This document shows positions 4,140 through 7,483 of a stretch of 64,000 bases of DNA, in pieces; position 1 is the first letter of the stretch; each line of letters begins with the position of its first letter. Where the stretch lies: positions 1 through 64,000 of the forward strand of contig CAIMMO010000138.1 of the NCBI GenBank assembly GCA_903842595.1, in the 5' to 3' direction. The position numbers and the translations under genes are program-made. The notes below the pieces were generated by a model. That model did not search any database, was not told the origin of the DNA, and was given only the letters and a program-made list of their open reading frames with translations. The DNA is from an uncultured Alphaproteobacteria bacterium. GTDB taxonomy: Bacteria > Pseudomonadota > Alphaproteobacteria > Caulobacterales > Hyphomonadaceae.

Positions 4140-4601
4140 TTGAGCACCCATCGCGAAACGCTGGACCTGCCTTACCGGCCGGAGGATCTGTTCGATCTGG
4201 CCGCCGACGTCGGACGCTATCCGGAATTCATCAGCTGGATTCAGGTGCTGAAGGTGATCAGCGAGGAAGAGTCGCCCGAACGCGAGCAGTGCAGGGCGGA
4301 GGTGACGGTTGGTTTCAAGGGATTTCGCGAGACGTTTGTGACGGACGTGGAGGCGCGGCGGGGCGAGATGGCGATCGATGTGTCGCTGGTGCGCGGGCCT
4401 TTCAGGAAGCTGTCGAACACGTGGCGGTTCAAGCCGGGGCCGAAGGGCGCGCGGGTTGAGTTCGTGATTGCGTTCGAGTTTCGGAACTTCGTGCTGCAGG
4501 CGCTGGCGGATGTTAACAAGGGATACGCGGTGAAGCGCGTTATCGATGCGTTCGTGGCTGAGGCTGGGCGGCGGTACCAGCGAACTGATGCGAGCTGCTG
4601 A
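4140..4601 (+). CDS. RatA/COQ10-like START-domain protein
   Basis: This 153-residue protein has the COQ10/RatA pattern: a beta strand, LFDLAADVGRYPEFISW, a central VGFKGFRETFVTDV segment, and VRGPFRKLSNTWRF. Family members bind hydrophobic ligands. The mitochondrial member supports ubiquinone function; RatA in E. coli was reported to block 70S ribosome formation. Linkage to lipA (one base between stop and start) is common in alphaproteobacteria and points to a role in respiratory metabolism. The start is a TTG at 4140, the only candidate giving the usual N-terminal length. Confidence 0.88.
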   Translation: MSTHRETLDLPYRPEDLFDLAADVGRYPEFISWIQVLKVISEEESPEREQCRAEVTVGFKGFRETFVTDVEARRGEMAIDVSLVRGPFRKLSNTWRFKPGPKGARVEFVIAFEFRNFVLQALADVNKGYAVKRVIDAFVAEAGRRYQRTDASC

Positions 4602-4702
4602 GCGTCTGCTCGCTTCGCGATCCCCCTGCTTCGCAGGCCGCCGTCTCCGCCCCGACGCGTCTTCCGGGCTTCGTCGATGGAGGACTTCCCCTCGTCGATG
4701 GG

Positions 4703-5287
4703 TTAGTTGTTGCCGCCCGGAGAGGCGCCTGGATCGGGATCGGGGATTACCGCGTCGCGGGGGCTGACGTTCGGGTTCAGCGGAACGGGCAGTCGTGAGT
4801 CCGGTGTCTGGTCGGACGGGCTCGGCGCGGCGGCGCGGGGCTGGGTGAGTTTGGGATCGGGGCCACAGGAGGCGAGCGTCCAGTTGCCGCCTCCTGAGCG
4901 CGTGACGCGGCAGAGGGCGTTGGTCGTCTGGTCGCCGGTCTTCGCCGCCGTGCGGACGAGCGCGCCTTCGGCATCGTAGCGCGGGCGGTGGAAGGTGAGG
5001 CGTTTCATGCCGGCTGTCGCGGTCTCGCCCTCAGGGCCCGCGATTTCAACGAGATTGAAGCCGGCAGCCTTCCAGTCGCAGCCTGGGCGCCAAGGCGCAT
5101 CCTCGCCGTTGAGCGTGATCGTCATCTGCGGATCGTCGGCACTGAGCTTATACTGCTCGCGGCCGATGGCGCCGATCAGCGCGCAATCGTCGGTGACGAA
5201 GGCTGCTTCCTTCGGCGGAACCGCCTCGGGCGCACTTTCGCAACCTGCAAGCGCCAGAAGACCCGCGGCCAGAAACAGTCTGTTCAT
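4703..5287 (-). CDS. Predicted lipoprotein, paralogue of the upstream gene
   Basis: The 194-residue product starts MNRLFLAAGLLALAGCES, a signal peptide with the lipobox LAGC, so it is probably an outer-membrane or periplasmic lipoprotein. The body carries DCALIGAIGREQYKLS, then a Trp/Cys-containing segment and a proline-rich tail of about 50 residues ending PGGNN. The start at 5287 shares one base with the stop of the upstream gene (TGATG), so translation is probably coupled. The upstream gene carries DCAVIAAIAKEHYKFS at the same place, so the pair looks like a tandem duplication. The function is unknown. Confidence 0.72.
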   Translation of the reverse strand: MNRLFLAAGLLALAGCESAPEAVPPKEAAFVTDDCALIGAIGREQYKLSADDPQMTITLNGEDAPWRPGCDWKAAGFNLVEIAGPEGETATAGMKRLTFHRPRYDAEGALVRTAAKTGDQTTNALCRVTRSGGGNWTLASCGPDPKLTQPRAAAPSPSDQTPDSRLPVPLNPNVSPRDAVIPDPDPGASPGGNN

Positions 5288-5739
5288 CACGATACCCAGC
5301 TCGTCCTGCACTCGCCGACCGTCCAGCCTGCGAAATCCGAAATAAGGCGGCATTCATAGCCGATGCCCGCCAAGGGTCCATGCATGATTTCAGTAAGAAC
5401 GCTGGCGCCGCCTCCGCCATAGACGGGCTTCTGGAACGCCACCCACTTAAGGCTCTGGCGCGGGTCGGAGCCGGACATGGGCTGCCCATGATCCGTAAAC
5501 CTGATGCCTGGCGCGCTGAAATCACAGCGCGGCGTCCCGCCTTCGTCGCCGCCGGGTTTCAGTGGTGGCGGGGCATTCTCCGGGCTGAACTTGTAGTGTT
5601 CCTTCGCGATTGCGGCGATGACGGCGCAGTCATTGGAAAAGGTCGTTATCCTGGCTGATGCGGGCGAATCGGCGACGGGCGGCGCCGCGGCACAGGCGCT
5701 GGCCAGCAGGCCCAGGGCAATGAGATTCGCAACCCGCAT
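5287..5739 (-). CDS. Predicted exported protein or lipoprotein, paralogue of the downstream gene
   Basis: The 150-residue protein begins MRVANLIALGLLASACAAA, a signal sequence with a cysteine in the lipobox position but with Ala at -3 instead of the usual Leu, so lipidation is likely but not certain. It shares with its neighbour the motif DCAVIAAIAKEHYKFS, a conserved Cys in TPRCDFSAPG and two C-terminal Cys residues. The shared core suggests a single domain with one or two disulfides. It is divergent from the three-repeat exported protein at 5928. I do not recognise the family. Confidence 0.68.
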   Translation of the reverse strand: MRVANLIALGLLASACAAAPPVADSPASARITTFSNDCAVIAAIAKEHYKFSPENAPPPLKPGGDEGGTPRCDFSAPGIRFTDHGQPMSGSDPRQSLKWVAFQKPVYGGGGASVLTEIMHGPLAGIGYECRLISDFAGWTVGECRTSWVS

Positions 5740-5927
5740 ATCTGGCTCCGTTCTGCCGGCTTCTTGCGACCGGACCTGATCCAGAAGTCACGGCTGCTGA
5801 TAGCGGCAATAGGGCGTGGAAGGGGATCGGGTTCCTGACCGGGACGATCAGGTTGGGTTCATGTGGCCGGCGGTATGGCGGGAGAATGAAAGGCCAGGTT
5901 CGGCCGGAGCCCTGATGGGAACTGAAC

Positions 5928-6710
5928 GTGAAAAAGCTGATTGCCGCCTGCTTCCTCGCCGCCGCCGCAGTCACTGCGGTTGCTCCCGCTTCCGCGCAGC
6001 GCGGCAATGACCGTGACTTTGGCGTGTGGAGCGGCGGCTACCAGAGCGGGCTAAGCGTTGACCAGATGAAGCGCTCGCTGGCGAATGATGGCTATCGCGC
6101 CTATCGCAGCATCAGGCTTGATGGCCGGCAATATGACCTGTGGTCGAATGCCCGCTCTCGCGAGTCGTGCGTGGGTTTCACCTCCTACAATGGTCGGGTG
6201 ACGGACGTGCGCGGCTTCGCCGACAGCGAGTGCGGGCTGGTGAGCGGCGGACGCCGCGGCATCGATGAGGACGATCTGCTCGGCCTGCGTGTCGATGACG
6301 CCAAGCGCAACCTGCGCGAGTATGGCTACACCAACACGCGGAATGTTCGGATCGACGGTACGCAGTGGGATCTGTGGCAGAGCGCGCGCGGGCGCGAGTG
6401 CATTGGCTTCACGTCGTACAACAGCCGCGTCACGGATGTTCGCTCATTCCGCGGGAGCGAGTGCGAAGGTTTCGGAATTCCCGGCAGCAAGCGGATCGAT
6501 GCGCGCGACCTGCCGGGACTTAATGTCGACCAAGCCAAGCGTGCGCTGGCGAATGCAGGTTTCCGCGCCGCCGGCAGTTTTCGTGATCGCGGGAAGCAAT
6601 GGGACTTGTTCTACGAAGGTAACGCTCGCCGCGCGCGATGTGTGGGTTTCACTTCCTACAACAGCCGCGTAACCGAGGCGGACGAGTTCGACGTGCGTGA
6701 GTGCCGCTAG
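5928..6710 (+). CDS. Exported protein with three Cys-paired repeats
   Basis: This 260-residue protein has a signal peptide (MKKLIAACFLAAAAVTAVAP, cleavage after ASA near residue 23) and then three repeats at about residues 40-102, 118-179 and 197-259. Each repeat follows the same pattern: GL.VDQ.KR.L, G.QWDLW (or QYDLW), C.GFTSYN.RVT, then a final EC. The two cysteines of each repeat are 21 residues apart (81/102, 158/179, 238/259), so one disulfide per repeat is likely in the periplasm or outside. The start is a GTG; no better ATG is in frame. The family is not recognised. It lies divergent from the two lipoproteins and converges on pncC with a one-base gap. Confidence 0.82.
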   Translation: MKKLIAACFLAAAAVTAVAPASAQRGNDRDFGVWSGGYQSGLSVDQMKRSLANDGYRAYRSIRLDGRQYDLWSNARSRESCVGFTSYNGRVTDVRGFADSECGLVSGGRRGIDEDDLLGLRVDDAKRNLREYGYTNTRNVRIDGTQWDLWQSARGRECIGFTSYNSRVTDVRSFRGSECEGFGIPGSKRIDARDLPGLNVDQAKRALANAGFRAAGSFRDRGKQWDLFYEGNARRARCVGFTSYNSRVTEADEFDVRECR

Positions 6711-6711
6711 C

Positions 6712-7203
6712 TCAGGCCATCATCTTTCTAAGCATTTCGAGCGCCGTCGCGATGGTTTCGCGACGGATGCGCTCGCGGCCGATGTCGCCGTAGCGCATGG
6801 CCTGATGGAAGATCGGCTTGTTCTCGCGAGCAACGGCGAGATGGACGAGGCCGACTGGCTTGAGTGGCGTGCCGCCGCCCGGACCGGCGACGCCGGTGAC
6901 GGCGACGGCGAGATTGGCGCGGGAATTTTGCAGCGCGCCCTCTGCCATCATGCGCGCGACAGGCTCTGAGACAGCGCCAGCGTCGGCGATGAGGTCGCCG
7001 GGGACGTTGAGCATCTCTTCCTTGGCGCGGTTGGAATAGACGATGAAGCCGCGCTCGACCGTGGCGGACGAGCCGGGGATTTCAGTCAGCAGTCCGGCAA
7101 TGAGCCCGCCGGTGCAGCTTTCCGCCGTGGCAATCTTGAGCCGCTTCTGCTGCGCCTCGTCGAGCGTGAGGCGGGCGAGCATCAGGAGTTGTTCGTCGAA
7201 CAT
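6712..7203 (-). CDS. pncC: Nicotinamide-nucleotide amidase (CinA C-terminal domain)
   Basis: The 163-residue stand-alone CinA C-terminal domain deamidates NMN to nicotinate mononucleotide in pyridine-nucleotide recycling. The motifs [33 protein letters not shown] and VAVTGVAGPGGGTP are diagnostic, including the catalytic serine in AESCTGG. The competence-related N-terminal domain of full-length CinA is absent, as in E. coli PncC. It is downstream of ispDF on the same strand. Confidence 0.93.
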   Translation of the reverse strand: MFDEQLLMLARLTLDEAQQKRLKIATAESCTGGLIAGLLTEIPGSSATVERGFIVYSNRAKEEMLNVPGDLIADAGAVSEPVARMMAEGALQNSRANLAVAVTGVAGPGGGTPLKPVGLVHLAVARENKPIFHQAMRYGDIGRERIRRETIATALEMLRKMMA

Positions 7204-7483
7204 GGGCGCTTTCCTTTGCGATCAGGCTAGCTCGCCCAGCGTCGGAGGCACAATGGAAAGTCGCTTGGGCGCCCTCTACACAGCCAAGTTCAGTTCGGAA
7301 GCAGGCGGCGATCGCACTGCAGACGGCTAAGCCTAGGAGTGCACTGTTGGGCGTTCCAACCACGAACGCTGCTCGCGACACCGGATCGGTTCCGGGCCAG
7401 TTCAGGCCCAGCGCCCACGCAGGGTGGATCAGACCAATGCCAGCCAATCTGACCATAAGCGCCAGACCAAGAGGATCCGTCAT
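7082..7483 (-). CDS. Possible small membrane protein coupled to ispDF (doubtful)
   Basis: An open frame of 133 codons begins with an ATG that overlaps the ispDF stop (ATGA, 7483-7480). Its first 65 residues contain two hydrophobic stretches, around [17 protein letters not shown] and [15 protein letters not shown], as expected of a small inner-membrane protein. The remaining residues are polar and overlap the start of pncC by 122 bases in another frame, which makes the C-terminal half doubtful. Other alphaproteobacteria often have pgpA between ispDF and cinA, but no PgpA motif is seen. A decayed gene or non-coding DNA is equally possible. Confidence 0.3.

Follow-up and report, generated by a model that had tools for sequence, protein, structure and literature searches.

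The window, by which we mean the whole 64 kb stretch of DNA that was analysed, encodes a real, conserved and exported protein that is built from three tandem repeat units and is new as a family, probably ordinary as a fold class. When its sequence profiles and predicted fold are taken together, the most economical reading is that each unit is a divergent PepSY/BLIP-like module, although membership of the PepSY_2 family fails the curated cut-off. For a gene family without an NCBIfam model, the analysis points to a likely fold class and to a surface that can be tested, and it would add a triple-module, cysteine-paired variety to the BLIP/PepSY/BamE superfamily, whose mode of action is still called poorly understood (PMC10653890). 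The three-unit protein by itself opens no new kind of biology. The features of the locus are collected in Table 1.

Table 1. Features of the three-unit gene and its surroundings, in window coordinates
Feature	Position	Strand	Remarks
Lipoprotein-like gene A	4703..5287	-	194 aa from ATG at 5287
Lipoprotein-like gene B	5287..5739	-	150 aa, divergent neighbour
Upstream element TGAC-N6-GATCA-N6-GTTCATG	5836..5863		conserved direct repeat
Three-unit protein gene	5928..6710	+	260 aa, GTG start, stop at 6708-6710
Signal peptide, residues 1-24	5928..5999	+	by eye on alignment A2
Unit 1, residues 37-102	6036..6233	+	Cys81 + Cys102
Unit 2, residues 110-179	6255..6464	+	Cys158 + Cys179; also modelled alone
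Unit 3, residues 190-259	6495..6704	+	Cys238 + Cys259

A first-pass annotation made from the sequence had proposed an open reading frame for an exported protein here, and the frame is present with exactly the proposed ends. Export is supported by the signal peptide, whose A-x-A-Q end is invariant in 8/8 aligned proteins; inspection by eye revealed neither a membrane anchor nor a lipobox. Pairwise dN/dS values of the gene range from 0.09 to 0.34 (28 pairs), and these ratios are rough because dS is at least 0.86 in 27 of the pairs. The stop codons of the three-unit gene and of the convergent cinA, which together occupy 6708-6714, are separated by one base (6711).

Each unit is about 65 residues long, and the three units of the window protein share 50-61% identity with one another (BLASTP E 1e-19 to 3e-25). 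The first-pass annotation had described in every repeat two cysteines 21 residues apart, a CxGFTSYN core and a QWDLW-type motif, and all of this was borne out. Besides Cys8 in the signal peptide, the cysteines form three pairs with that spacing, the core reads C[VI]GFTSYN in 3/3 units, and the second motif is QYDLW, QWDLW and QWDLF (Q[Y/W]DL[W/F]). When six cysteines were placed randomly in a mature chain of 236 residues, three equal spacings arose in 40 of 200,000 trials, and the earlier observation of a constant spacing is thus exact. The spacing is kept in 24/24 units of the eight genomes that carry the gene, and every mature chain has exactly six cysteines. Fourteen positions are invariant in all 24 units (unit-model numbering): G10, V13, L20, G24, G35, Q37, D39, L40, R47, C49, G51, F52, S54 and C70. 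The linkers between the units are glycine-rich in the aligned relatives. Mean identity is 64% (84 pairs) for units that occupy equivalent positions in different genomes, compared with 53% (24 pairs) for units of a single protein, and therefore the triplication probably predates the split of the carrier genomes. Unit alignments A1 and A3 contain 21 of the 24 units, the three units of the near-identical G001 being omitted.

The unit had been said to match no recognised family. This stands in so far as the window protein has no NCBIfam match, no Pfam model covers the whole unit or passes its cut-off with the window protein, and no domain of assigned role was matched with full confidence. It does not stand for the fold class, which is probably BLIP/PepSY/BamE-like, nor in view of the link to PepSY_2 at profile level and of the similarity to part of PASTA. 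The window protein scores 14.4 bits against PepSY_2 (PF13670), below the cut-off of 24.3 bits; one relative (L003) scores 25.0 bits with its signal peptide and 18.4 without it. An hhalign comparison of the 24-unit profile with PepSY_2 gave a score of 27.0 over 36 columns (the helix and strands 1-2) and an E value of 2.8e-5, which refers to one chosen comparison and, multiplied by 24,736 Pfam families, becomes about 0.7, so that by itself it would not be enough in a blind Pfam search. The score was reached by 0/200 column shuffles (mean 9.1, maximum 17.9) and not by the reversed profile (7.9), and the link persisted in 5/5 subsamples of 12 sequences (E 1.3e-5 to 2.4e-4). The PepSY_2 profile comprised 25 sequences, since of 26 chosen (24/30 loci and 2/7 loci) one was dropped for stops, and the signal-peptide part was removed; an earlier attempt with five PepSY_2 rows had found nothing. 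The other profiles were built from 28/30 (PepSY), 20/29 (PASTA) and 10/12 (BamE) loci. With these, no comparable link was obtained between the unit and classical PepSY (PF03413; E 0.066, 18/200 shuffles as good) or BamE/SmpA_OmlA (PF04355) of the same genus (E 0.67, 173/200 shuffles as good), and the BLIP model (PF07467) had no Pfam match at E <= 1 to the eight mature proteins. PHROG 31385, a 75-position phage family of unknown function, gave a short weak match to the whole window protein (E 4.3e-5) that lies in unit 2; against single units it matched 7 of 21 at E <= 1 (best 0.0062).

A structure prediction for a single unit, which the first-pass annotation had suggested, was obtained for unit 2 from the 21-unit alignment with a pLDDT of 89.9 and a pTM of 0.74. 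The model consists of a short helix, a loop, a helix, four strands and a helical turn (H5-8, H13-22, E25-33, E36-43, E49-55, E58-65, H67-70), and this predicted layout is that of the BLIP/PepSY/BamE-like fold. A helix followed by four strands also appears in all three units of the full-length model (pLDDT 74.6, pTM 0.48), where only unit 2 is listed with the short first helix. Published descriptions give a BLIP domain a helix-loop-helix that packs against an antiparallel sheet of four strands (PMC6121496), and a PepSY domain a single helix with four strands (PMC10653890). The first ten rows of the VIA-align search with the unit have Z scores of 5.0-6.3 and r.m.s.d.s of 3.0-4.2 Å over 60-65 residues; all Z scores of the unit are below 8, a level that VIA-align calls common for mere arrangement, and too low to prove homology. 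These rows are an SCP-domain protein (residues 52-115), the DUF4309 protein YjgB, three BLIP entries, a putative Streptococcus mutans BLIP, SAV1118, BamE from B. henselae, OsmE and chain E of a BAM complex, which we take to be BamE. Six of the ten were assigned to the BLIP/PepSY/BamE-like class by title, and the other four, the SCP-domain protein, YjgB, SAV1118 and OsmE, are presumed members. An unrelated protein in row 11 (Z 4.8) is close enough to row 10 to count as tied with it, and another BLIP entry appears in row 48 (Z 3.7).

Foldseek returned nothing for the unit at E <= 0.001; its top rows are unrelated adenylyl cyclase chains (E 0.087 and up), and BLIP is found at rank 25 (E 0.67). 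With the full-length model its best row is the C-terminal domain of YpeB (E 1e-4), which superposes poorly (TM 0.16-0.18, r.m.s.d. 17.8) and is followed by unrelated proteins; the best VIA-align rows for that model are YjgB and BLIP (Z 5.9). A search of viral folds gave no row at E <= 0.001. For comparison, BVU2987 was assigned to the BLIP/PepSY superfamily at Z scores of 5.5-6.5 to BLIP and 5.2 to YpmB (PMC2954215). The unit probably belongs to the BLIP/PepSY/BamE-like fold class, for which the model and VIA-align provide fair support and which Foldseek does not favour.

Among the known members of this class, PepSY and PepSY_2 proteins (PF03413 and PF13670), such as YpeB from Bacillus, are extracytoplasmic and share with the unit one helix and four antiparallel strands, and the three tandem PepSY domains of YpeB (PMC10653890) parallel the three units. 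Nevertheless, the 25 compared PepSY_2 stretches lack the cysteine pair and the QWDLW and CxGFTSY motifs of the unit, and neither a peptidase nor a SleB-like gene was recognised by eye among the open reading frames of the window. BLIP is secreted and consists of tandem helix-loop-helix and four-stranded modules, like the three-unit protein (PMC6121496), but it has two units instead of three. The three BLIP entries align to the unit with Z scores of 5.6-5.8; identity to BLIP in the structural alignments of the unit and the full-length model is 4-9%. The target of BLIP is class A beta-lactamase, whereas the window protein carries no sign of such a target. BamE and OsmE, which are single-domain lipoproteins, are envelope proteins of the same fold class (Z 5.0-5.2). 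BamE itself is encoded elsewhere in 12 of the 15 genomes of the genus (it was not found in G000, G011 and G012).

Orthologues with three units each occur in eight of the 15 genomes of the window's genus. At E <= 1 the genus search matched 13 genomes, eight strongly (best E < 1e-30) and five weakly (0.33-0.57). Weak second matches in G000 (contig C143) and G001 (C10) lie on the strand opposite to gene-like open reading frames and were judged to be spurious; a further weak second match occurs in G004 (C65; L074). Outside the genus, an order-level sample gave matches in two of 299 genomes, both of them within the genus, and a class-level sample in four of 385, namely the window's own genome and three fragments, in each case among the best 20 or 16 candidates per genome. 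The fragments have 32-37 codons and E values of 0.006-0.009, about four matches being expected by chance at E <= 0.01, and one contains a stop. A match in G033 (E 5.7e-5) within a 995-codon frame was rejected because its translated part is without cysteine. A scan of GTDB-220 with two DLW-containing patterns, which reaches relatives that carry the DLW motif, yielded seven loci from 34 pattern matches (five Hyphomonadaceae, one Alphaproteobacteria and one labelled 'bacterium'). These loci are not independent of the genus search, because by length and place they are the same contigs as in G001, G004, G005, G006, G007, G009 and G013. No relative was found among 35 pattern matches in viral contigs, in plasmids or, by tblastn, in phage records, and PADLOC reported nothing. 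Judged from sequence, the three-unit protein appears to have no convincing occurrence outside the genus among the genomes and databases searched. In an unrooted tree of cinA and ispDF (13 genomes; G006 and G012 omitted), G003 and G011, which lack the gene, are placed next to G000 and G001, which carry it; for a tree without an outgroup, this suggests that the gene may have been gained and later lost.

At seven loci of carriers the gene order is the same: the divergent lipoprotein-like pair, the three-unit gene, the convergent cinA, and then lipA and coq10, with the contig extending to ispDF, dusB and ntrB/C in six of them. These neighbour names are our reading of the sequences. The first-pass annotation had placed two paralogous lipoproteins beside the gene, and this is supported for two lipoprotein-like genes: genes A and B, which overlap and lie on the strand opposite to the three-unit gene, are paralogous (31% identity, E 6e-14) and their products both contain several cysteines; by eye the lipobox is canonical (LAGC) in one and imperfect in the other. 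Neither has a Pfam or NCBIfam match at E <= 10. The pair adjoins the three-unit gene in 8/8 carriers (the window and seven loci). It also stands next to cinA in the non-carriers G003 and G010, and at least gene B does so in G011, up to the contig end; in G002, G008 and G014 coq10 is next to cinA and no significant lipoprotein match was found at that locus. Judged at the cinA locus only, the pair is thus present in ten of the 14 genomes of the genus that were judged (all but G012), in addition to G011 with at least gene B. The three-unit protein is 51-64% identical to that of the window at these loci, compared with 71-96% for cinA, lipA, coq10 and ispDF, when the near-identical L043 is left aside; the lipoprotein-like genes also diverge fast (58-75%).

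Upstream of the gene, the TCA-N8-TCA part of the element in Table 1 is found 76-85 bases before the start codon in 8/8 carriers, and the rest of the gap is variable. It is absent from the gap between the lipoprotein genes and cinA in 3/3 genomes that have the lipoprotein genes but not the three-unit gene. The 64 kb contain 16 TCA-N8-TCA sites in both orientations, and a search of 4600-7300 gave no sigma-70-type promoter site. OmpR-type regulators read direct repeats with such spacing, and the TGA-N8-TGA spacing of CenR sites equals that of the element (PMC9275681). We do not claim control by CenR: 28 of 31 CenR sites are co-directional with their gene (PMC9275681), whereas the element points opposite to the three-unit gene; its flanking bases differ; and a study of CenR-linked promoters in S. 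meliloti describes inverted repeats instead (PMC9561847).

As to function, we propose that the gene would yield an exported protein, periplasmic or secreted, that is soluble and has three BLIP/PepSY-like modules in tandem, each with a helix on a four-stranded antiparallel sheet. An intra-unit disulfide could form between C49, where strand 3 starts, and C70, which lies in the turn that follows strand 4, as is suggested by their conservation in 24/24 units, the even number of cysteines and export, and it would pin the end of each module. Strand alternation, which we used in place of coordinates, predicts that V31, W38, L40, V/I50, F52, V59 and F65 point towards the helix and that N30, Q37, D39, W41, G51, T53, Y55 and T60 form an open face. 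In the open-face columns Q37, D39 and G51 are kept in 24 of 24 units, T53 in 22, W41 in 21 (Phe in three) and Y55 in 19, and conservation of the predicted face is about equal to that of the core. The face of the sheet with which BLIP grips beta-lactamase is likewise polar and aromatic (PMC2954215). For these two reasons we propose a binder in which three similar open faces, joined by linkers, would bind an envelope partner in order to hold it or to inhibit it, in the manner of BLIP and, as has been proposed, of PepSY proteins. We give this reading an even chance; binding, the binding face and inhibition are inferred. TseB binds PBP2A via its PepSY domain (PMC10653890). PepSY proteins do not always act through these domains, however, and an inhibitory role is therefore a weak prior: the account of CopD in the same source places its PBP contacts in the membrane and cytoplasmic parts and not in the PepSY part (PMC10653890), and the N-terminal domain of YpeB is reported as the best inhibitor of SleB in vitro (PMC6660665). 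Three similar faces make fishing for a partner practical. We regard as improbable the fullest version of the proposal, in which disulfide-locked PepSY/BLIP-like modules would form a new family confined to the genus, would have been triplicated before the split of the eight genomes and set into a conserved locus, and would inhibit or hold an envelope enzyme at three sites; production of the protein may in that case be controlled by an OmpR-type envelope regulator through the conserved 11-base repeat upstream.

Other readings account for parts of the same evidence. The repeats might be a structural or adhesive surface string, whose modules would serve as stable spacers or associate with one another and would have no specific enzyme partner. 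Three similar units with disulfide-type spacing and glycine-rich linkers in the relatives, confinement to one genus in the searches made, and divergence faster than that of cinA, lipA, coq10 and ispDF at the same loci would all suit such a string, but the invariant polar Q37 and D39 (24/24) on the presumed open face exceed the needs of a spacer, and the protein is just three units long and by eye lacks an anchor or lipobox; we consider it unlikely. The constant company of the lipoprotein-like pair, which adjoins the gene in every carrier, raises the prospect of one envelope module, for example with the two divergent cysteine-containing lipoproteins as an outer-membrane receptor or target. Yet the pair also occurs without the three-unit gene, and linkage by descent at one place would produce the same pattern. 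Shared control is unsupported as well, because the upstream element is missing from the lipoprotein-cinA gap of three non-carriers, and the idea of a joint module seems distinctly doubtful.

It is quite unlikely, too, that the unit is a degenerate PASTA domain (PF03793) and the protein a soluble string of PASTA domains with muropeptides or peptidoglycan as its ligand. PASTA domains are tandem repeats, and the start of the unit, LxGxxVxxAxxxLxxxG, resembles profile positions 5-24, while the remaining two thirds of the unit have no match. A Pfam PASTA match at E <= 1 occurs in 8/8 proteins, and four of the eight orthologues pass the whole-protein cut-off (27-30 against 23.2 bits), but the best stretches are all confined to profile positions 3-28 of 64, none falls below 0.01 alone, and the window protein stays under the cut-off with 20.4 bits (20.9 for the mature chain). 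The hhalign comparison gave an E value of 1.2e-4 over 20 columns, with 5/200 shuffles as good (maximum 132, apparently degenerate), and a profile search of the PDB lists PASTA chains of PknB and PonA2 at E 0.17-1.7. The unit model has four strands after the helix, and PASTA of PonA2 is described as a helix with a three-stranded sheet; for PknB two more short strands are described, in the order beta'-alpha1-beta1-beta2-beta''-beta3 (PMC6151718). A separate protein from a genome of the same class (G756; L155, 1237-2025) has 262 residues, looks exported, and shows three PASTA matches over the cut-off in a similar size and layout.
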